64,000 bases of DNA, taken from Polytrichum commune (taxonomy: Eukaryota; Streptophyta; Polytrichopsida; Polytrichales; Polytrichaceae). The DNA is taken from positions 18,571,666 through 18,635,665 of the forward strand of contig OX485807.1 in the NCBI GenBank assembly GCA_950295325.1. Direction: 5' to 3'. A model generated the notes under the pieces. The model was given only the letters and a program-made list of their open reading frames with translations, was not told where the DNA came from and did not search any database. Numbering within the stretch: position 1 is the first letter of the stretch; each line of letters begins with the position of its first letter. Positions 52,040 to 64,000 of the stretch are shown one piece after another. A program made the position numbers and the translations under genes.

Positions 52040-52129
52040 AAATATCAGGATGAAGAAACAAAGCAATAAAGGGATATGAACACTGGTGAGTCTTTGGGAC
52101 TTCCGGTAGCACAATGTGGTTTTTAAGTA

Positions 52130-52318
52130 CCTGCTCAGATAGTTTTCAGTGTCTGAACCTCTCCGGCAACGAAGTTTGGTTTTGGCATGCTCAGATAGCT
52201 CTTAGCGCCTGAAACTCTCAGGCAACGTAGTCTGATTCTTACCTGCTCAGATAATTCTCAACGTTTGAAACTCTCCAGCAGTGCAGTCTAGTTCTTACCT
52301 GCTCAGATAGTTCTCGGA
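52130..52318. repeat. Minisatellite, about 3.3 units of ~57 bp
   Basis: Units begin ACCTGCTCAGATAGTT and continue with TCTGAACCTCTCCGGCAACG and TAGTCTGATTCTT. They start near 52130, 52187, 52241 and 52298 and differ by substitutions. Confidence 0.8.
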
Positions 52319-52494: not shown

Positions 52495-53517
52495 TGTCAC
52501 GGTATGCGGTGTCGGCGGCCGCACCTTATCCGTTGGGCTTCATCCATTTAGGTTTGGATGGATGAATCTAGATGTGGAGAGGAAGGCTTTTAAGTGAGGA
52601 GCCTCCTCCTTGGCTTGGCATTCTTGCCAAGTCAAGTCTTGTGAGTGAGTGTGTGGAGAGAGCTTGTGTGAGGTGAAGATTGCATGTTTTTGCAATAAAT
52701 CTTGAGTTCTTCTTCCCCTACTTACACTCTTGGAAAATTAAATTAATTAAATTAATTATTTTATGTTTCCTTTCAACTTCTAATTTTTTCTTTTCTCTCT
52801 AAGAGATTAATTTCTTGGGGATTGAGAAAGACGGATTTTGGCGGAAACTTTGTTTTCATTAATCAAGAATACAAGATGAAACCCAAACCTCTTATGAAAT
52901 ATTAAGGTAATTGGGATTTCTTTTAGGGGTTGTGTTGCACAAAATTTCCGAGGGGGTATCGTTGGAGATTGGGTGGCATGTGGAATTTCCGTTCGGTCTA
53001 AAATAAATTATTATTAGGGTCGAATTGTGTTTGTCAACACATATTCCCGACATTGTTATAAGGAGGGATTCTTAGGTAGTAGTGGGGAGCCGAGAGATGT
53101 GCATAGGTGGCATTTCATTTCCCTACGCAACAGGGGCTCTTCATTTTGACCACCAACTGCAGGCAGGTGCCAGTTGGTTGCGGTCGCTTTCAATTTCTGC
53201 TTAAGTGTTGTTTTGGGGAAGAGGATTCAGTGCTGTTATTGCATTGTTCCTTGTATTTTGTTTTGGTACCTTCCCCTGTGGCGGGCTGTAGTGCTGGAGT
53301 GTTCCAACACTGCCCCATTTTTGTGTTGTCCTAGATTGTGATAAGGTATTGTAGGGGTGAGGTCGGAGTAATGATCGACGGGATCCTTGTGTATGCACAA
53401 AGTGGGCGGTGCTTGTATTCCCTTATGGTGAGGTTGGATTGATGATTAACAGACCATAAGTTTGGTGGTGTTTGCAGGTGCAGGTTGCCTTTCATATTTT
53501 GACACTTTACCTTGACA
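52495..53517 (+). repeat. Candidate 5' LTR of the methyltransferase-bearing element
   Basis: TGTCACGG at 52495 and CCTTGACA at 53517 form a short TGTCA...TGACA terminal inverted repeat just before gag. Inside, near 52695, GCAATAAATCTTGAG resembles a polyadenylation signal. TGGCTCCAGTGA, shortly after the proposed end (about 53536), could be a primer-binding site because it begins TGG. No 3' LTR is in the window to confirm the borders, so they are provisional. Confidence 0.4.
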
Positions 53518-53567
53518 CCACATTAGTTTAGATTGTTGGCTCCAGTGACTTAACCCATTTCGGGTTT

Positions 53568-56500
53568 ATGGTTACAACTCGGAGCCAACATTATCGTTAT
53601 CCATCTCGGGTATCATCGGAAGGTCGATCCTCGGACCTCTTAGACGTTGAACCAGTGGTAGCACCCGACGAGGCTTTTCAGCCTATTTCGGCGTGGGAGA
53701 CTGCCATTCGGTCTCACGTCTTTTGAGTGGGATCCTTTGACGAGTTGGAGGAGGAGACGCGAGACGGCATCCGAGACCGATTTTCTAGTTGAGCGGGGAC
53801 CATTTCCCTACAAGATTGGAAAATTCGGTTCAAGATATGGATGAGGGAGAAACGTCAACGCAATATCAGTTTCAATGACTAATATGCGTTTGATCTACTG
53901 CCCCAACATTTGGAGCACGAGGCTCTCCAAAGTTATGAACAGTGGACAGAGGCTCATTGGATGGAACTGCACCAGGTGGAGCGGTACTGGTACACATCTT
54001 CTAGTTTGATGGCCGTCCCTGAGGTTAAATCGGAGGTGTTGGAGGGAGTATATGTGGTGGATGTCGAGAAAGCTTCTCCTAATGAACCCAAGGATAAGGG
54101 TTCTGCTCCCGCTGCGGTGTCGTGATGTGGGCGGTCTATTAGTTAGAATTTAGATATTTTATTTGTTTTCGTTATTTTTAAGTTGATCTTAGTTAGGTAA
54201 AAACCGGTCTTAAGTTGAAGACCGGATGAATTGGTAGATGGATGTGGTAGGTAGGATTGGATTTACCGGCGGGCCAATAGCTAACCACCTAGGAGTTTTA
54301 GAAGGTTTTTACTTTAAATTCCTATTGGCTTACCGGATTAGCCTTTAGCCCCAAACGCCCTATTTCTAGCGGGATTAAGGTTCTAGAAACCTTTAACCCC
54401 ATATCTTTCCTATTTCTAGTAGGATAAGGATTCTAGAAACCTTTAACCCCAAAGGTCATCCATTAGCAAGCTACTTGGAGGGGTTCTAGAGGACCTTACC
54501 TCGATGGTTTCCTATTGGCCGAAGGGGGGCAAGGTGGAAGACTATTTAAGGGGTGTTAGAAGAGTGTTTAGGGGGGACCATTAGTATTTTGGAGTTGTTA
54601 CTTGTGTTGGATTGAGGGAGCTTAGAGCATCTTGAGAGGGATAAGTGCTTAGGAGGCTCATCTACACAAGAGGGTGTGGAGGTGTGGCATTTAGAGTGAC
54701 TAGATTGTACTAGGTGCACTACTTGTAGTGTTTTATTGGTTATGAACTTGAGCAGAACTTTATAGTGAGAGATTTGTCAATTATGGATGATCAGAGTGTT
54801 CAATGGATATGAAAATTTGAGGGATTGTTTATTATGAGTTATGGAAGTTGTGGTAAAAATTTGAGAGCTTCAGTCATTGGCATAAAAAATTTATTAAGAG
54901 TTGAAGGGAAGGGTGTCTAGGAACAAAGCCAACTAAACTAGCAAGGTTTGAAAATATGTATCTTTTAGAGGGTTATAGATATGGATACCAAAATTTGACA
55001 CCACCTTTTGAACTTACATATCTATCTTGTGTTAAAATATGAGATTTATTGGACATAAGAGTAGGAAGTTATTAAGGTTTTAGAGACCGGGTGTTTTATC
55101 ACAGCATTCATGCTAGGTAGTTAGAGTTAGAAAATAATGCATAACTTTTGCATATGAACTCTGATTGTGCTCAAATTTGGTGGGAATGTTTTTGATAAGA
55201 TACTTAATAAGTGTACCAAATTTTACTTGAAGAAGATGATTTGGTTTTGAGTTATACTATTCTGAAGTTTAGAGGGACCACATTGAGAGAAATTTACATC
55301 AAGAATATAGGAGAAGGAAAGCTACTATATTTTTTTCTAAACACTACCATAAAATAGAAGCCCGGCGCTTACCGGATAGTGTATATTTTCCTTGACAGCG
55401 GTAAATACGTCGAGCCCCATTCTTCCACTCTCTCGTTATGCCCAGGCTACTCAAGCGGCTTTAGCCTCTTTGGGGGCTCCGCCAGTTTTTGAGCCGTTAC
55501 GGGCATTTGAGCTGCATCTACAGGAGGAATACGGAGGTTTCCGTCGGGACCAAATGCAGCGGATATAAGATTTTAGACGGGAGAAAGACGATACACCTCG
55601 TACCATGTATACGAGGTTGGCGAGGTTTGCCAGAGAATATGGAGGTGTGTTTGTGGAAAGTCAATTGGTAAAGGTATTTTTGTCCAAGATTGACAAACGC
55701 CTCCTTGATTTGACGCTACCCAAGATCAACATGGAGTTTGGTGGTCGGGCGACACTCGTACAGACATTCGCCATTGTGGAGCAGTGTGATCGTGCATTGT
55801 GTCAGCACGATGCCACTAATTTGGTGTCCTTGCTAGTGGATTCTAGCAAATCTTGGAAGGCTCCGATCGCGATTACAGGATTGGCGGAGGCGGAGGCGGA
55901 CAAGACCTTGCATTGTTGGTCTTGTGGGCAGGCGGGCCACGCTAAGAAGGATTGTCCTTCGAAGCATAGGCAAGCCCAGACCGTAGGTAATCCGAAGCGG
56001 AAACAATTTGTTTCCGTGAAGGATTCGACGAAGGAGGCGGGTAAACATTTACCCAAGCAGTTGACGTGTTCCCATTGTGGGCGGAACAATCACGCGGTGA
56101 AGAACTACTTCGCTCTCCATGCAGAGAAACGTCCTTCTTCCGATTGGGAGAAGGCGTTGGAGGCGAAGATTAGAGCATTGGAGGAGAGGTTCAAAAGTTT
56201 GGCGTCATTCGGCCAAATCTTGGACTCACCGTCCTCCTCCGCCGCTAAGGCTAGTTCTTCCACTCCGGATTATTATATGTTCGGAGCCTCGGGAGAAATG
56301 GTGAGTTCCGCAGCGGTGACACGGGCTTAATCCGTGTCACGAGCCACGCCCTCGACCACAAGGGAGTCTGTGGATAGCTTACGAGCTCGGGATAATAATC
56401 CCGCAGATCAGAATGGCCAGGCTCGTCTGCCATTATCTTTTGGATTGGCGGATGCCGTCCAATCTGTAAGTGCTCGTCATTCGAGCTTGGAGGGTTCTAA

Positions 56501-56807
56501 CCCGGCGACTGGCGTGGTGCACACTTTGGCATCCAAAGTGTTGCACACCCCTTTGTTCACGGCGATGGAGTGGTCGTCGCCAGAGTTCCAACCTGCTAAG
56601 GTTTTCCACTTAGCGGGTAGGATTTTGGAAGGGAAGGCATCATCACCTTCTCTGACCGTGACCCAAGCCACCACGGACATCCCTACTTCTGAAGACCCTG
56701 ATGAAGTGGCCAAACAGCGAGCGAGACTTGCCGCAGAGACCATTGCGTCTTTTGACGCACACACCTCAAATGACAGGGGGCCGACCACGTCTTATGACTC
56801 ACCATAA
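53568..56807 (+). pseudogene. gag of the methyltransferase-bearing element, interrupted
   Basis: From ATG 53568 (MVTTRSQHYRYPSRVSS) one frame runs to the insertion at 54118, with stops at 53724, 53790 and 53880. After the insertion (55398) the same protein resumes in phase (NTSSPILPLSRYAQATQAAL), with a stop at 55566. It continues through a capsid-like region (MYTRLARFAREYGG, LVKVFLSKIDKRLLDL) to zinc knuckles. The first, CWSCGQAGHAKKDC, is a complete CX2CX4HX4C. In the second, CSHCGRNNHAVKNY, the final Cys is Tyr. Further stops lie at 56328 and 56805. Gag packages the element RNA. Each stop is of the TAA/TGA kind that one C-to-T change from CAA or CGA would make. Confidence 0.8.
54118..55397. 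mobile_element. 1280-bp solo-LTR-like insertion in gag
   Basis: Begins TGTCGTGATGTGGGC, ends TTTTCCTTGACA and has no coding potential. It is flanked by GCGG (54114-54117 and 55398-55401; GCGGT if the first element base is shared). Removing it would restore the gag frame across Ala-Ala-Val-Asn-Thr. Termini and size suggest a solo LTR. Its TGTC...GACA ends resemble those of the candidate host LTR. Confidence 0.75.
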
Positions 56808-56882
56808 TCCGCGGGAGTAGCTTATCTATCTGATGTAACTGCTAGACCTGCTCACGAGCGCCGCGGCATTCGACCCGGTGTC

Positions 56883-57477
56883 GTGCGTATGGTGAATGAT
56901 ACCGATATTTTGGTAGTCAGTCGGACTAGAGGCAATGCCACTCGGGTTGCTCCCCGTTGTGTGATGATGGATTCATGGGCACAACCGGTTATGATCGGCA
57001 AGAGGCTTGCCCATGAGTTGGGATTGGTGGCCGAGGACTTGGCTCCCTGTCCATTCACCATTGTCACATCTGTTGGTCACGTGGAGCAGGCAACGAGTTA
57101 TACTCGGGAGCCATTAATTACAGCTTAGCCTCCGAGTGAAACCTGGAGATCCACCCGCACCTCTTCTTCTTAGGTGTGCGGTGACGGATGCGACCAACTA
57201 TGACATTTTAGTTGGTCAGCAAGCACTTTACCCTATTGGCTTTGGTTTGGACAACTGGACTAAGGAGGCGTGGATCCGACCAGGTTGGTCGGCTGGGGAC
57301 GGCCGCAGGGAGCTTATTCCTGTGGCATTCGCAGCGGCCGCGACCATAGCACCATTATCCATGGTCTTTGGATGTGATGCTATTGTGGATACTTTGCCTT
57401 ATGGTTCCGCATTGTTAGAGGAGTCACTGGCATTCATGGCCGGGGAGTACAAACGATCAACGGGATATGGCACCTAA
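56883..57477 (+). pseudogene. Retropepsin-like protease segment
   Basis: The frame continues from gag: NDTDILVVSRTRGNATRVAP, then MMDSWAQPVMIGKRLAHELG, then a stop at 57126. A +1 shifted frame carries VTDATNYDILVGQQALYPIG and EAWIRPGW, to 57477. In this family the active site reads DSG or DTG; here the position reads DSW, so the Gly is gone. It would cleave the polyprotein if intact. Assignment rests on its position between gag and pol and on the VMIG context. Confidence 0.6.
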
Positions 57478-58739
57478 GGGTGCATTGGTGCGCCATCCCA
57501 AGGATCCCCTTCCTCCCTGGCGCGATTCCGCCGATCTATTCCGGCGATGTGAGGACATTGTCCTCTTTCTCGCCTCTACGACACCGGTCATACTTGATAG
57601 TCCATCAGCGTTGGCACACCCTATTATGTGGCGCCCGCCAGACGCGGGGCTCACTTTGGTGGAACTATTTGGAGGCATCGGCACGGGCTTAGCAGTCGTA
57701 TTAGAGGCTGGCCTCACGGTCAGACGGTATGTCTATGTGGACAACTCTCCAGTGTCCACCCGTGTGGCTTATCACCATCTTCACCAGTTGATGGTATTGT
57801 ACCTCCAGCAGTTACACCCAACTGCCATTCGTGGGTGTTTTTCATGTCTCCCTCGTGATGTCACACTCATCAGTGAGGCCGATTTACGACACTTGGGTCC
57901 AGTGGATATGGTGATTGCGGGATGGCCATGCCAAGGCCACTCACGTGCTGGAGCAGGCCGAGGTTTAAAGGATCCCAGGTCTAGCCTTTTCTGGGACCTC
58001 ATCCGGCTTATGCAGTGGTGGTTTACCCACCAACCTTCCCCTCCAAGGTATATCTTCGAGAATGTACATTTGTTGGGAGACTCTTGGGACAAGGTGTTGG
58101 AAGGCGGTCATTATGTTCGTCAACACCTTGGAGATCCCATTTTTGTGGATGCTGCGAGCATTGGTTCTTATGCCCACCGGCCTCGGTGGATTTGGACCAA
58201 CCTTGCACCGTCATCTACCTTAGCTACAACATTTTCTGCAGTGCCTCCACCTTTTTATCAGAAGGCGGATGACATCTTGGATCCAAACCGGACCTCTTTG
58301 CCAGTTGTTCGAGATGATTTACCCCCGTTGGCATTGGTCAACAAAGTGGGGGCACCACGGCGGGCATTTCCCACCTTTATGATGTTTCCACGTACAGTCA
58401 TTCGCATTCCGCGATCGGGGCCCGGGTATAGTGTGGGATATTCATACCAAAACCCACACCGAACCATTGGCTAACGAATGGGAGCGGGCCATGGGATTCT
58501 GCACTGGCACCACCGCAGCTCCTAGCCTTTCTGAGGGCCAACAACGCTTCGTGTTGGGCCAAGTCATGGATCTTTATACCATGGTGTGGACTATTGGTTT
58601 ATGCCTTGCATTGCAACGGCATCATGGTGACCAGTTGTTGTCTCTGGGGGTAGAGGATTCTGGTCAAAGGGCAAAGCAGTCCACATCCATGGAGGAAGGA
58701 ATTGAGGTCATGGTTGGAGAAGCCGAACGAATCTTTTGA
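57467..58739 (+). CDS. C5 cytosine DNA methyltransferase domain (DNMT3-like) in pol
   Basis: Transfers a methyl group from SAM to cytosine C5. An open stretch of 335 codons (57467-58474) has the C5-MTase motifs in order: motif I ELFGGIGTG (residues 66-74), an acidic residue at strand 2 (YVYVDNS, 88-94), motif IV AGWPCQGHS with catalytic Cys155, motif VI IFENV (196-200) and a motif VIII-like AHRPRWIWTNL (236-246). Phe-Glu-Asn-Val and the AHR-R pattern are closest to DNMT3/DRM enzymes. The C-terminal part lies in another frame from about 58420 (VWDIHTKTHTEPLANEWERA, then GQQRFVLGQVMDLY, like motifs IX-X) and stops at 58739. One frameshift in the G/C run near 58418 therefore splits the domain. 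The N-terminus overlaps the protease frame by 11 bases in a different phase, so it was probably part of a polyprotein. Known analogues are the retrotransposon DNMTs of charophytes and dinoflagellates. In this copy it is probably inactive. Confidence 0.85.
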
Positions 58740-59664
58740 TTCGAGCAGCAGGTCATGGAGGAGCTCCGAGCTCAACGGGTTTATACTGCTTTGGTTTCTT
58801 CACCTCTGGTGGTGACTTCATCATTACATATTGGTGGTGATGAAGAGGGGATGGACTCTATTGCTAGCACAGAGGTTGGGGGCATGGTTAATACCCCCTC
58901 CTCTCATTAGCAGTTAGAGTCCGTGCCAGCACCAAGTGACTCTCTTCTAGTGGAGAGGGAGACCACATAGTTTGATGATTGGCCATTGGAATTGGGCCCT
59001 CATCTCACTGGTGCTGAGGCACGGAAAGTACGAGCATTTCTTCGCTCGTACCGTAGGTGTTTTGCTTTTAGCCTTCAAGATCTTGAAGGTTATAAAGGAA
59101 AACCCATCCACATTCAGTTGGAGGACGATCATCCCATTTTTCGGAGACCTTATAGGCTCAGTGTTTCCGAACGGATTGGCGTTCAGACTTGTTGCCGAGA
59201 GCTCCAACGGGGAGTATGCTTGTGCTACAGTTATGCCATCAAAGAAGGATATATTTGCTAATTGGACGGAGAAGCGGATGTGCGGGGATTACCGTCCAGT
59301 TAACCGGAAGACCAAGTCGGATCGGTATCCCATGCCAATCCCGGGGGAGTTGTTCGATGCCCTCGGATTTGCTCGAGTTTTTAGCACATTGGACTTGAGA
59401 TCCGGCTATCACCAGCTCCCATTACTTGTGGGAGACCGGGTGAAGACTGCATTCTGGGAAGTTGATCATGATGCGAAGGATCAACTGTACCATTGGAAGT
59501 TTCTTCCATTTGGCCTCAAGAATACACCTACTGAGTTTCAGAGAGTGATGGACCAGGCCTCTCTGGCTTGCTATTTTCTCGGTGTTACATTGATGACGTG
59601 ATCATATTCAGCAAGACACCACAGGAGCATGTTAGGCACCTGCAAGCCGTTTTTGAACACTTGC
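58740..59664 (+). pseudogene. Reverse transcriptase, N-terminal and palm part
   Basis: After a linker with stops (58908, 58968) comes ELGPHLTGAEARKVRAFLRS, YRRCFAFSLQDLEGYKGKP, then a frameshift near 59205. Next come SNGEYACATVMPSKKD, MCGDYRPVNRKTKSDRYPMP, STLDLRSGYHQLP and FLPFGLKNTPTEFQRVMDQ, then a second shift near 59575, and the catalytic RCYIDDVIIFSKTPQEHVRH. It copies element RNA into DNA if intact. The protein breaks off at HLQAVFEHL, where a 2.5-kb element is inserted. At the first shift several residues expected between CREL and SNGEY are missing, a small deletion. Confidence 0.85.
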
Positions 59665-62174
59665 TATGAGCCCAAAATGAGTGCTCATATTTGTTTTATG
59701 TTTAGAACCTACTTAAAATTGCATTTGGAGTGTGTTAAAACAATCAAAAGTATAAAAAGAATGAGGCTTGGTGTGGATTTATGTTTAGGCCTTAAGCCAT
59801 TTTGTGTGGTGAATTAGAAGCTTAGTGACATTAGGGAATATTTTGATTAGAGGAGTAGTGCTTGATGAGGCAAAGGGAAGTGCCTTTGATTTAAATGTTT
59901 GAATTAGAACATGTTCTTGTTGGTTTAGGGGGTGAGGGTTTAATGGATAGGATAAGGTCCTACTAAGTAGGAGAGGATTATAAGGTTGTGGTCTTGGGTG
60001 CACCTTCCTTCACTCCTATCCTCTCACCCTCCTCCTCTCTCTCCCTCATTCAATTTCTCTCTTCTCTTCCTCTTCCTCCTCCTCTCTTCACTTCTCTTTC
60101 TCTTCTCCTCTCTCTCTCTTCTCTAGGAAGTTGAGCTCTTAGAGCTCGGGAAAAAATGTGGAATTAGGTAGGGGACTTAGTGGGATTAGTGGAATTAGGT
60201 AGGTGAATTAGGGGGAGGCCTTGGAGAAGCTCTTTTGTGTTCATTTTCTAGTTTTTGTGGTTGAGGGTTGTCGCAACCCTTGCTAGCCCCCCCTTGACCA
60301 TCTTGCCAATTTTCAATTCTAGCAAAGGTTACGAACGCTAACCCTTCGCATTCCGCCATGCTAATGGATAGCTCCTCTTACCCCGGACCAATAATTCATA
60401 AGAGGGAACCAACCCTCCTACTTTACTTTCGGGACTCACCCCTTAATCGGTAACCCATTTCCCCAATGTGGACTTCCATCCATGGAAGTCCAATCCTATG
60501 TTGATCATCGCATTGCCGGAGCAACACTACAACAACCCGAACCATACTAGGCAACTATGGCCTCACAATAGGCCAAAGCCCATGGAGGCCTTGCCGTTCG
60601 GCCTCGGGTGGGTGAGGCCACACCACCTCACCCATATAAGCCTCTAGGACTCTACACGGAGCCCCTATCCCACCGCCAACCAACCTCTTGTCTCTCTACC
60701 AAGAGTTGGGGCCAAGTGGACATTTTCCCTTAGCTGCTGGGCCTAGAACCCCCCCAGCAGCTTCAGACCATCATAACTTCCTTGTATGATGTCTGATCAT
60801 AACAACCAACCACTCCATCCTCATCTACGCTTCACGTAGATGCCGATGGACTCCTCGCTTGCCCCATTCGGGCAAGGCTTGAGGAAGTTATGCCTGTTTG
60901 AACCTTGGCAGTCCCGGGAATCACTCCCAGGCACTGCTGTACCAGGGCGCTGTCCCGGGACAGCACCCCACTCAAATGGCCATAACTCCTAGCTCACACC
61001 TCCGATTGAGGTGTTCTTGAGCATTCTAGAATCACCACGCCATGAGCTACGCATAGCTCATGGCCTTACCCTTGTGCCTCCTAGTCTCCGTGGGTGGGAG
61101 GCGTTCCCAACGCCCGGGCCCTCACCCACACTAGGATCACTTGGGCCCTCTCACCAATGGCGCCACAAGTCCCGGGTGTCACTCCGGGGTCCCCCTTGTG
61201 CCCATGGTGTTTCGGGCACTCCTCATGGAGAGGTGCGCGACAAGGGTGGAGAAACTTAGTTAGAAGTAGCCGCAGCTAAGGAGCTGGGTTTATTTAATTA
61301 GAAGTAAGGAGCTGGGTTTATGAAGGAGCTGGGTTTATTTAATTAGAAGTAAGGAGCTGGGTTTATGAAGGAGCTGGGTTTATTTAGTTAGAAGTAGGGA
61401 GCTGGGTTTATGAAGGAGCTGGGTTTATTTAGTTAGAAGTAAGGAGCTGGGTTTATGAAGGAGCTGGGTTTATTTAGTTAGAAATAGCCGCAACTAAGAG
61501 CTGGGTTTATTAGTTAATTAGTGCCTACTAGCCTAATTAGCCTCCCAGTTAATTAGTCTTTGGTTAGTTCAAACTACACCCTACCTTAGATTGTTGGTTA
61601 AGTGTGTGGCTACATGGTGGCATTAAGATACAAAGTTGGTGCTGAGCTACGGGGTTGACATTAAACGTGGAGTTGACACTAAGCTGCGGAGCGGGCATCA
61701 AGTGCGGGGTTGCTATCAAGCTGAGGAGTTGGCCATTAATTCATGGATTCAACAAGTGAAAGTTTTGCTAAGACCAAAAGCTCAAGAGGAATATCGGCAA
61801 GGGCATGTGTGGCAAAGACTATGACTTGGGAGCTTGAGTCGGCTAAGGAAGTAACCATACACGATACTAATGGTATCGAGGCATCATTGTCTCAAGCAAA
61901 GTGTGAAGCTAAGAAGGTTTCAAAATAAATGAAAATCATTAAAAATGAGAAGTAGTGAGCTAGTCACTCTCACATGGAGAGTGGAACACGCTCTAAGGGG
62001 TAAGTAGGAGGAAGGGTGCTTGTGAACTCTTGGAAGAAGTTAATAAAGACTAGCACGACTAGTGCATTGGTGGAGAGTTGAATTTCATGTTTCTACGATT
62101 ATCGACATAAGACATGTGATTCTCAAACCCATACCCGGACTAGGACGCTTAAAGGTGGTGGGTTTGGCCTCACA
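59665..62174. mobile_element. 2510-bp LTR-like insertion in the RT, TSD CTTGC
   Basis: Begins TATGAGCCCAAAATGAG and ends GGCCTCACA. CTTGC is duplicated at 59660-59664 and 62175-62179, and the RT resumes in phase after it. The related copy at 62618 begins TGTGAGCCC, so the original ends were TGTGAG...CTCACA. It has a TATAAAAAG box about 85 bp in, a pyrimidine tract (about 60000-60125), a GC-rich middle (60600-61230) and the minisatellite at 61276-61490. There is no protein-coding region and no second internal LTR, so it is a long solo LTR or a non-autonomous element. Confidence 0.75.
61276..61490. repeat. Composite 45-bp minisatellite, ~4.5 units
   Basis: Alternating GGAGCTGGGTTTATTTAATT-type (28 bp) and GGAGCTGGGTTTATGAA (17 bp) modules form a higher-order 45-bp unit, nearly identical between copies. 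Confidence 0.93.
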
Positions 62175-62179
62175 CTTGC

Positions 62180-62617
62180 ATCGGTGGGGATTGCGCTTAC
62201 ACCATAGCAAGTGCAATTTTTTCTATGACCAATTGGCATACCTAGGTCATATGATTATTCCGGAAGGTGTTGGGGTGCAACAAGCTAAGGTGGATGCCTT
62301 GCAGAAGATCCCGGGACCGGTCGATGTGCCGAGACTTCGTGCTTTCTTGGGCTTGGCGAATTACTACGGACGATTCGTCAAGAACTTTAGCTTGATCGCC
62401 AAGCCTCTCACCATTCTCACGAGCAAGGACCAACCTTGGATTTGGGATCGTGAGCAACAACAGGCATTTGAAACGTTGAAACAGAGACTGGGTACGGCTC
62501 CAGTGCTTCGACGTCCAGATGTTTTCAAATCTTTCCAATTGCATACGGATTGGAGCTCATTGGGCTTGGAAGCAATTCTCACTCAAAAGGACAATGTTGG
62601 TCGGGAGTATGTTGTTG
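62180..62617 (+). pseudogene. Reverse transcriptase end and RNase H start
   Basis: Continues the RT after the insertion: RWGLRLHHSKCNFFYDQLAY, LGHMIIPEGVGVQQAKVDAL, FLGLANYYGRFVKNFSLIAK (RT connection), then the RNase H start APVLRRPDVFKSFQLHTDWS, in which the usual TDAS is TDWS, and REYVVV. The frame is open but is cut by another insertion at 62618, where YASRS is expected. Confidence 0.85.
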
Positions 62618-64000
62618 TGTGAGCCCAAAATGGTGCCCACATGTGGTGATTAACTCTTCGAAACCAATTTTAGTTTGACTTTGATGTGTTATGATTATTC
62701 ACAAAACATAAAAAGAGTGAAGTGTGGTGTGGATTTAAGTTTAGGCATTAGAATGTGTGGTGTAGTTATTTCAAGGTTTGATTTCAATAAGAGGATGCCT
62801 TGATTATGGGAGTAGTGGGTAAGGTGAAGCAAGGTGAGCTCCGCGGGTTAAATGCCCACTTTTGGATCCACCTTGGTAGTTTAGGAAGAAGGAAGCTTGG
62901 TGGTTGGGGATTAGTCCCTACTTTGGAGGAGAGGGTTAAAGGATTGTGATTGGAGGTGCTAATCCTCTCACCCTATCCTCACCTCTCTCTCCCTCTTTGC
63001 TACTTAAGGTGCTTTCTCTCTCATTTACAACTCTCTCCATCAAGCGCTCTCAAGGGAGCAAGCTCTTAAGAGCTTGAGCCACGTGTGTGGGTCATTAGTT
63101 TTAGTGAAGTTAAGTAGTTAAGCTCTCCCTCTCAAATCCTCTCAAGGGGAGCGAGCTCTTAGAGTTTGAGGCTTATGTGTGGATTAGTTAGTTATAGTGA
63201 AGTTAGGAAGTTAATCCCTCTTATGAGTAGGGGAAGCTTAGAGTCATTGGACTAAGCTCATGAGTAGTGGTTAGATTGGATTAATTTAGTGGGAGGTGTG
63301 CATTCATTAGTTAAGAGGCTTAGATGAGCAATTGATTAAGCACTAGAGTTGAAATTAGTTTGGTGTTGATTTCATCAACTGCTGCTGGGACTGCTGGTCC
63401 AGGGGCCTCCCAAGGCTCAACTGCTGCCGGGACTGCTAGTCCAGGGGCCTCCCAAGGCTCAACTGCTGCCGGGACTGCTAGTCCAGGGGCCTCCCAAGGC
63501 TCGTTATCTCAGTAGCCGAAAGGGCCGAGACCAGCTCATTGAAGTGGTGAAAGCGAAGGTCAACTTTAAGGGAACTTGGATGGTTGGTTTAAGCTGGGTT
63601 ACCGAGGAATGGGTTTAGGGGCCTAAAGCTTAGCCCAAATCGAACATTATCACTAAAACTAAGCATAGGGCAAGTTATGCATTTTATATTATTCTAGTGC
63701 ATATGTAAGTTTTAGACTTATTAGGCTAGGTAGTGTGAGGTGTGGTTTGCTAGTAAATGTAATTGGGGTGGACTAGTAAGAACAGTGTTTTTGAACGCTC
63801 GCATCTTATTGGGCAAATAAATCACTTGCATTATTAATGGAGAAGGTGGATGACCCCCGCGATGACGAGACAAAGGAGGTTAGGCCAAAGGTTGCGAGGG
63901 GGATGTCTTTAAAGGCATGTGTGACCACGGCCGCGGGTTGGACTCTTGAGAAAGCCAACTCTAGCACAAGCCAAGAGGCCAACATTAATAAAGTACAATG
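62618..64000. mobile_element. Second LTR-like insertion, same family, runs off the window
   Basis: Begins TGTGAGCCCAAAATGGTG and matches the 59665 element over its first ~150 bp (ATAAAAAGA box, TGTGGTGTGGATTTA-GTTTAGGC), again in a CTCTCTCC tract and in an AGCTCTTA-AGAGCTTGAG motif. It cuts the RNase H frame after Val-Val-Val. The 42-bp minisatellite at 63377-63502 lies inside. Its right end is outside the window. Confidence 0.7.
63377..63502. repeat. 42-bp minisatellite, exactly three units
   Basis: Three units of AACTGCTGCCGGGACTGCTA, GTCCAGGGGCCTCCCAAGGC and TC. Units 2 and 3 are identical and unit 1 differs at two sites. It sits in the second LTR-like insertion. Confidence 0.95.

Follow-up and report, generated by a model that had tools for sequence, protein, structure and literature searches.

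A DNMT3-class cytosine methyltransferase as a fixed domain of a Ty3/gypsy retrotransposon family in the moss Polytrichum commune

A 64,000-nucleotide stretch of the genome of the moss Polytrichum commune (contig OX485807.1 of assembly GCA_950295325.1, positions 18,571,666 to 18,635,665 of the forward strand), hereafter the window, contains a copy of a Ty3/gypsy retrotransposon in which a DNMT3-class cytosine C5-methyltransferase (MTase) domain lies between the protease and the reverse transcriptase (RT). An earlier note, made from the letters of the window, had proposed this arrangement, and the observation is confirmed: the MTase is a DNMT3-class domain fixed inside a Ty3/gypsy element. The window open reading frame (ORF) at 57419-58474 matched PF00145 in a profile search (E 1.1e-11) and human DNMT3A (2qrv) at E 1.8e-11, with both DNMT3A and DNMT3B among the solved-structure matches. 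The four motifs named in the note were found in the order given there, namely motif I, LVELFGGIGTG, at 57656-57688, motif IV, PCQ within GWPCQGHS, at 57920-57943, motif VI, FENV, at 58055-58066, and motif VIII, AHRPRW, at 58172-58189, and its coordinates agree with the extent of the domain. The later motifs ERAMGF (58482-58499) and LGQVMDL (58554-58574) lie in another frame, the domain being split over 57419-58474 and 58383-58739; hence the window copy cannot make it whole. Upstream of the MTase are a CCHC zinc knuckle of gag and a retropepsin segment, and downstream of it is the RT.

A PF00145 profile search of the whole genome, in which 123 of 353 candidates were scored, returned at least 123 matches, many in frames of more than 1000 amino acids (aa) and at least one of them the host DRM gene. 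Twenty copies of the element were fetched, picked for PF00145 and long open frames, a choice that favours intact copies and signs of constraint (L-numbers below denote fetched genomic loci and P-numbers proteins from database searches). The intact paralogues envisaged by the earlier note are present: in 18 of the 20 copies gag, protease and MTase form one open frame of 1356-1386 aa with the MTase whole inside it, the frame being broken inside the MTase in L027 and L028. This recurrence across the genome indicates that the domain seen in the window is not a product of chance. The fetched copies fall into three clades, A (the L012 type), B (the L020 type, which includes the window copy, 86-92% identical to L020 over the coding pieces) and C (L028). 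The element begins with a repeat (A) and continues with gag-protease-MTase, a UAG, RT-RNase H-integrase-PHD finger, a different repeat (B), and then A and B again. In L012 the first ORF (ORF1) has the CCHC knuckle at aa 375, the protease motif at aa 727 (in a segment with a weak match to PF13650, E 0.0012, below the curated cut-off) and the MTase at about aa 955-1273, followed by the UAG, while the second (ORF2), of 1047 aa, comprises RT, RNase H, integrase and a PHD finger (PF00628, E 2e-10). The order RT-RNase H-integrase, with a DDE integrase, is that of Ty3/gypsy elements; no chromodomain, the mark of chromoviruses, was matched after the L012 integrase at E 0.1, the PHD finger standing there instead. 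L012 also gave no match to a tyrosine recombinase, and its ORF1 no Pfam match to ADD or PWWP domains at E 0.1. The element MTase has the DNMT3 fold with its motifs in the order I to X, unlike the rearranged order of DRM. A scan of viral contigs for the MTase gave no match, records close to this genome possibly being left out of that collection. Divergence between the repeats was scored in 14 copies, of which eight have A and B free of substitutions, albeit with gaps in L012 and L018; this implies that the family moved recently.

At the border of the two ORFs all 20 fetched copies have a TAG followed by CAATCA, CAATTA, CAACCA or CAGCCA, and the window copy has TAG-CAG-TTA (58908..58916, + strand), of the same motif class. 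The pattern UAG-CAR-YYA, which we take to be the readthrough signal of the tobacco mosaic virus (TMV) type, holds for the 20 copies and the window copy alike, with flanking sequence that varies by clade. ORF1 reaches the border TAG in frame in 17 of the 20 copies, the frame upstream of it being broken in L022, L027 and L028, and in 11 of the 20 this TAG alone separates ORF1 from at least 1045 open codons. As judged from protein sequences only, no more than about 150 aa separate the MTase from the end of ORF1 in the metagenomic relatives P0003-P0015 too, whose lengths are 1330-1451 aa, and MTase and RT share one frame in P0027, P0028, P0031, P0154 and P0238. Given the conserved UAG-CAR-YYA after the MTase, we infer that in the moss branch the MTase would be made with Gag, at a level exceeding that of RT, by way of a predicted leaky UAG.

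The explanation that we favour, with somewhat better than even confidence, is that these copies belong to an old green-plant family of Ty3/gypsy elements in which a captured DNMT3-class MTase has become a fixed domain of the polyprotein. Most ribosomes would stop at the UAG, so that the MTase would be packaged in excess of RT, and inside the particle it might methylate cytosines of the new cDNA before integration; methylation of cDNA by such elements was proposed in 2018 in PMC5890265. The solved relatives closest to the PHD finger include CHD4, PHF12, PHF21A, UHRF1 and AIRE. Several of these presumably read unmodified histone H3, and the finger may steer the integrase to H3K4-unmethylated, silent chromatin, where a copy that is methylated on arrival might be treated like resident heterochromatin and do less harm. 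On its sequence features the moss family is a DNMT3-gypsy branch of bryophyte type, marked by the predicted leaky stop, the PHD integrase, the self-complementary primer site and the repeat layout.

This layout, with A only at the 5' end and B-A-B at the 3' end (numbered A1, B1, A2 and B2), rules out an ordinary pair of long terminal repeats (LTRs). The element ends in TGTC...GACA, and exact 4-bp target duplications flank 18 of the 18 fetched copies with both ends resolved (all but L026 and L027); 15 of these have the full order A-coding-B-A-B, while three (L009, L011 and L019) have A-coding-B only, with perfect 4-bp duplications. A search with the A repeat, in which 40 of 804 candidates were scored, gave 22 that by position form 11 pairs about 9.2-9.6 kb apart and 18 that are unpaired. 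One of the latter is L011, and the 17 others, which were fetched, comprise 11 A1 repeats followed by the primer site, three solo A-B (exact duplications in two, three of four bases in one), one A2 with a one-base change in its joint, and two unresolved cases. Adjoining A are 12-16 nt complementary to a site within A in 19 of 19 copies, in sequences that differ among the three clades; when A was shuffled 300 times for each copy, matches were no longer than 8-12 nt, and only for L024 does a shuffle tie the observed 12 nt. Inspection by eye places the complementary site within or next to a hairpin. A primer site able to pair with the 5' repeat of the same element resembles the self-priming feature of Tf1, and the cDNA is probably self-primed, the primer site being complementary to this hairpin region in A. 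The identity of A ends at the primer site, B begins right after a G-rich tract, and the 14 nt that precede the primer site are found again immediately ahead of B2 in 13 of 14 copies (with one substitution each in L022 and L024). At the B1/A2 joint lies GACA-GC-TGTC, a palindrome flanked by the two termini of the element; the joint of L028 was read by eye. L018 lacks 21 nt exactly at its A2|B2 joint, with CTTG microhomology and repeats free of substitutions, as expected of end joining. These joints suggest an unusual, non-standard integration route, in which cDNA that is joined or circular is probably opened by the integrase at the palindrome inside it (GACA^GC^TGTC). In its simplest form the circle model does not account for their one-sidedness, which counts against it: if the two joints of a circle were equal and either was opened at random, half of the insertions should have the mirror form, A-B-A-coding-B, and of 30 A1 ends (19 from the fetched copies and 11 unpaired) none is preceded by B.

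The lack of any permuted form is what would be seen if the split repeats were instead copied by a route like that of DIRS and PAT elements, with A2-B2 templated by RNA and with neither an LTR-LTR joint nor a circle opened by the integrase. DIRS and PAT elements have a tyrosine recombinase and are not known to make a target duplication, whereas the moss element has a DDE integrase, no tyrosine-recombinase match in L012, and the 4-bp duplications. The stop of A identity at the primer site, the start of B after the G-rich tract and the exact loss at A2|B2 in L018 also speak against such a route, as do the three A-coding-B insertions with their duplications, though recombination between B1 and B2 could also have given rise to the latter. 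The order A-coding-B-A-B itself is nevertheless the one called DIRS-like for an element of the alga Klebsormidium nitens, in a figure legend of PMC5890265, and we regard the DIRS/PAT-like route as possible, at clearly less than even probability.

Domain orders were called mechanically from profile matches in 261 related proteins, many of them partial. The MTase precedes the RT in 15 (type I), the order is RT-RNase H-MTase-integrase in 21 metagenomic proteins (type II; e.g. P0188, P0196-P0198, P0225, P0240 and P0251), and in 23 more the MTase precedes the integrase with no RT in the protein. One of these 23, P0193 of Volvox reticuliferus, has integrase-PHD and an MTase-like stretch without PCQ; P0144 of Haematococcus has integrase and PHD finger and no MTase match. 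Among the 120 of 406 matches listed, 117 have the PHD finger and 46 the MTase. Built from the same 23 rows, 9 of type I and 14 of type II, the MTase and RT trees each set the two orders apart (100/99 in each) and have 11 of 20 splits in common, against at most three in 500 label shuffles; they contain two groups only, and so their dividing branch does not tell the ancestral order. In a rooted 37-row maximum-likelihood tree of MTases the type II rows fall in one group (98/88) together with two metagenomic MTases of unknown order, and this group sits, poorly resolved, among several type I lines. The simplest reading would be a single capture followed by relocation of the MTase within the polyprotein.

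The Nei-Gojobori ratio dN/dS between clades A and B, from 10 and 8 copies respectively in the case of ORF1 and from 7 and 4 in that of ORF2, takes the values 0.10 (MTase), 0.026 (RT-RNase H), 0.025 (integrase), 0.115 (PHD finger) and 0.63 (linker after the MTase), at a synonymous divergence that is near saturation (0.66-0.73; 0.56 in the linker) and that left gag and protease not computable. Several results weigh against the favoured explanation. Within clades the dN/dS of the MTase exceeds that of RT (0.57 versus 0.10 in A and 0.23 versus 0.07 in B, where the linker has 1.06). Compared with a ratio of observed to expected CpG of 0.50 in positions 1-50000 of the window, eight copies show 0.66-0.74 and the window copy 0.74; CpG depletion as a trace of self-methylation was therefore rejected, there being no CpG loss beyond the window background in the eight copies (CpG transitions, not normalised, account in clade A for 479 of the 2798 differences between pairs of copies and in clade B for 1153 of 6506). 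The K. nitens retrotransposon DNMT gave no detectable methylation in yeast, a result called inconclusive in PMC5890265. Finally, by a simple pattern the catalytic motif in type II proteins (n=21) is ECQ in 10, PCQ in 6 and not recognised in 5, and in the proteins without RT (n=23) it is ECQ in 9, SCQ or VCQ in 2 and absent in 12, P0193 included; type I (n=15) has PCQ in 5, ECQ in 2, PCV in 1 and no such motif in 7, of which several are partial. Such counts speak for a putative loss of catalysis in part of the family.

Alternatively, the MTase domain could owe its retention to DNA or RNA binding or to a structural role in the particle, with catalysis dispensable. The altered or unrecognised motif in many type II proteins, its absence from Volvox P0193, the missing CpG footprint and the weaker constraint on MTase than on RT all agree with this reading; the motif counts led us to raise our estimate of it a little and to lower that of the favoured explanation by a smaller step still. 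It has to contend with a catalytic Cys and a motif VI Glu that are invariant in the 23-row alignment (A2), whose rows we chose ourselves, and with the moss copies and most Marchantia proteins, in which PCQ and the motifs that follow it are preserved. We consider it unlikely, if a serious competitor to a captured MTase that acts on DNA.

As to the descent of that MTase, a sequence search and an alignment search, each scoring about 8000 candidates that share most words, matched at least 34 proteins (including ones from Marchantia polymorpha and Sphagnum fallax, bryophytes being the nearest relatives with a name) and at least 106 (including a K. nitens protein labelled retrotransposon, P0125), respectively. 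In the 37-row tree all 33 retrotransposon MTases, among them those of K. nitens, Marchantia and the moss, form one clade (99/99) that adjoins human DNMT3A and host DRM (98/90); in this tree DNMT3A is represented by part of its sequence, the branch of DRM is long, bryophyte DNMT3 has no row and P0125 fills 48% of the kept columns. P0125 groups with P0031, P0033, P0040, P0041 and P0043 (100/100), and the moss, Marchantia and metagenomic P0003, P0012 and P0047 rows form another group (100/98). The clade common to K. nitens, Marchantia and the moss points to shared descent, not a fresh capture, these being the two outcomes that the earlier note had envisaged for such a tree, and bears out its suggestion that the moss element extends the known set of retrotransposon DNMTs. 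P0036, labelled 'Candidatus Obscuribacterales', groups with the plant retrotransposon MTases, at 90% to P0037, and is likely plant DNA binned as bacterial. The host DRM gene (L044, C2:4702000-4705500; recognised by its motif order, by eye, and a DRM2 match at E 5.6e-52) is multi-exon and has a rearranged motif order, which rules it out as the donor.

A fresh capture of the host's own DNMT3, independent of Klebsormidium, would account for the DNMT3-class sequence and fold, and PMC5890265 describes the K. nitens capture as an acquisition independent of those in dinoflagellates; the position of P0125 and the Marchantia and moss MTases in one clade apart from DNMT3A and host DRM, and the partial agreement of the MTase and RT trees, make it highly improbable. 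That a host gene or a nested insertion came by chance to stand beside the RT, an outcome that the earlier note had set against its own claim and for which the fragmented window copy with its nested insertions might be cited, is refuted by the same place and frame of the domain in 18 of 20 copies and by the bryophyte and metagenomic relatives. More tentatively, and at odds below even, the favoured explanation may be widened to a gypsy lineage spanning the green plants, in which one DNMT3 was captured before the chlorophyte/streptophyte split and moved between two places in the polyprotein, with an integrase whose PHD finger would read H3, a Gag-level dose set by the leaky UAG, and a DDE integrase that would open circular cDNA at the palindrome. 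To our knowledge, the opening of circular cDNA by a DDE integrase at a built-in palindrome is not an established route for LTR elements.

The window copy, all of whose features lie on the + strand, spans from the A repeat at 52495 to past the window end, its B1 ending at about 66457. The 5' A repeat (52495..52734, starting with TGTCACGG) retains its first ~240 bp, at ~95% to A of L020. The broken gag region (53500..56807, its start approximate, from alignment to L020) has the CCHC zinc knuckle in the ORF at 55569-56330, and a stretch at 54113-55405 without alignment to L020 is taken as an insertion. The retropepsin-like segment (56808..57477) is in two frames, with a changed motif, DSWAQP at 56970, where L012 has DSGAQP; it is followed by the MTase domain (57419..58739), assigned from PF00145, DNMT3A and the motifs. 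The first part of the RT (58951..59664) is cut off by a 2.5-kb nested insertion (59665..62175), which ends near GAGCCCAAAA and TTTGGCCTCA and contains, at 61278-61483, a 45-bp tandem array. The RT end and RNase H start (62176..62617) are followed by a second insertion with similar ends, which cuts the RNase H region and extends from 62618 through the window end (62618..64000) to about 64133, with the remaining element beyond. Thus the copy has broken frames and three non-element stretches within the window. The two nested insertions, with their similar ends (GAGCCCAAAA and TTGGCCTCA), probably belong to one DNA-transposon family. Beyond the window, at about 66457-66870 (L029), another insertion separates B1 from A2; its ends are TACACGGGGGG and CCCCCCGTG, and GACAGC is repeated next to it. 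Immediately upstream of the element is a tandem repeat of 56-bp spacing (52128-52314), and the window also holds CDPK-like and phosphoribulokinase-like frames, named by eye. The genome comprises 408 Mb in 64 contigs, and the window is part of C5; C1-C7 total 406 Mb, and so the plant probably has seven chromosomes.

With these findings, an arrangement previously described from a single green alga becomes an enduring trait of a family of plant elements, one that has young copies in a bryophyte, and it becomes testable why a transposon carries the kind of enzyme that its host uses for silencing. A dose of the MTase is predicted from the leaky stop, a preferred chromatin target from the PHD finger, and a form of the cDNA, accessible to direct sequencing, from the repeat joints. 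DNMT3s are stated to occur in streptophyte and dinoflagellate retrotransposons in PMC12344493, and a host gene, PpDNMT3b, is treated in PMC6453930. Among the matches listed in literature searches on retrotransposon DNMTs, PHD fingers of LTR elements and split repeats, with subscription journals mostly outside their scope, there was no bryophyte or chlorophyte DNMT3-gypsy element and no PHD integrase of such an element. The closest known system is KnitGypsy-Dnmt3 of K. nitens (de Mendoza et al. 2018, PMC5890265), which likewise has an intronless DNMT3-class MTase in a Ty3/gypsy polyprotein and the DIRS-like order A-coding-B-A-B, and whose MTase shares a clade with that of the moss if P0125 is taken to come from it. 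The moss element differs in its host and in the PHD finger on its integrase, the word PHD being absent from the text of that paper, and may differ in the predicted leaky UAG between MTase and RT, both of which stand in a single frame in P0031, a member of the MTase clade of P0125. SymbioDIRS-Dnmt3 and SymbioLINE-Dnmt of dinoflagellates, described in PMC5890265 as well, also combine a retrotransposon with a cytosine MTase, SymbioDIRS too in two domain orders, but are tyrosine-recombinase or LINE elements, unlike the DDE-integrase gypsy element described here. Animal DNMT3A and DNMT3B differ from the L012 ORF1 in that the latter matches neither ADD nor PWWP, and DNMT3A falls outside the retrotransposon clade. 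With self-primed elements of the Tf1 type the moss element has in common a primer site complementary to its own 5' repeat, and it differs from them in its split repeats.
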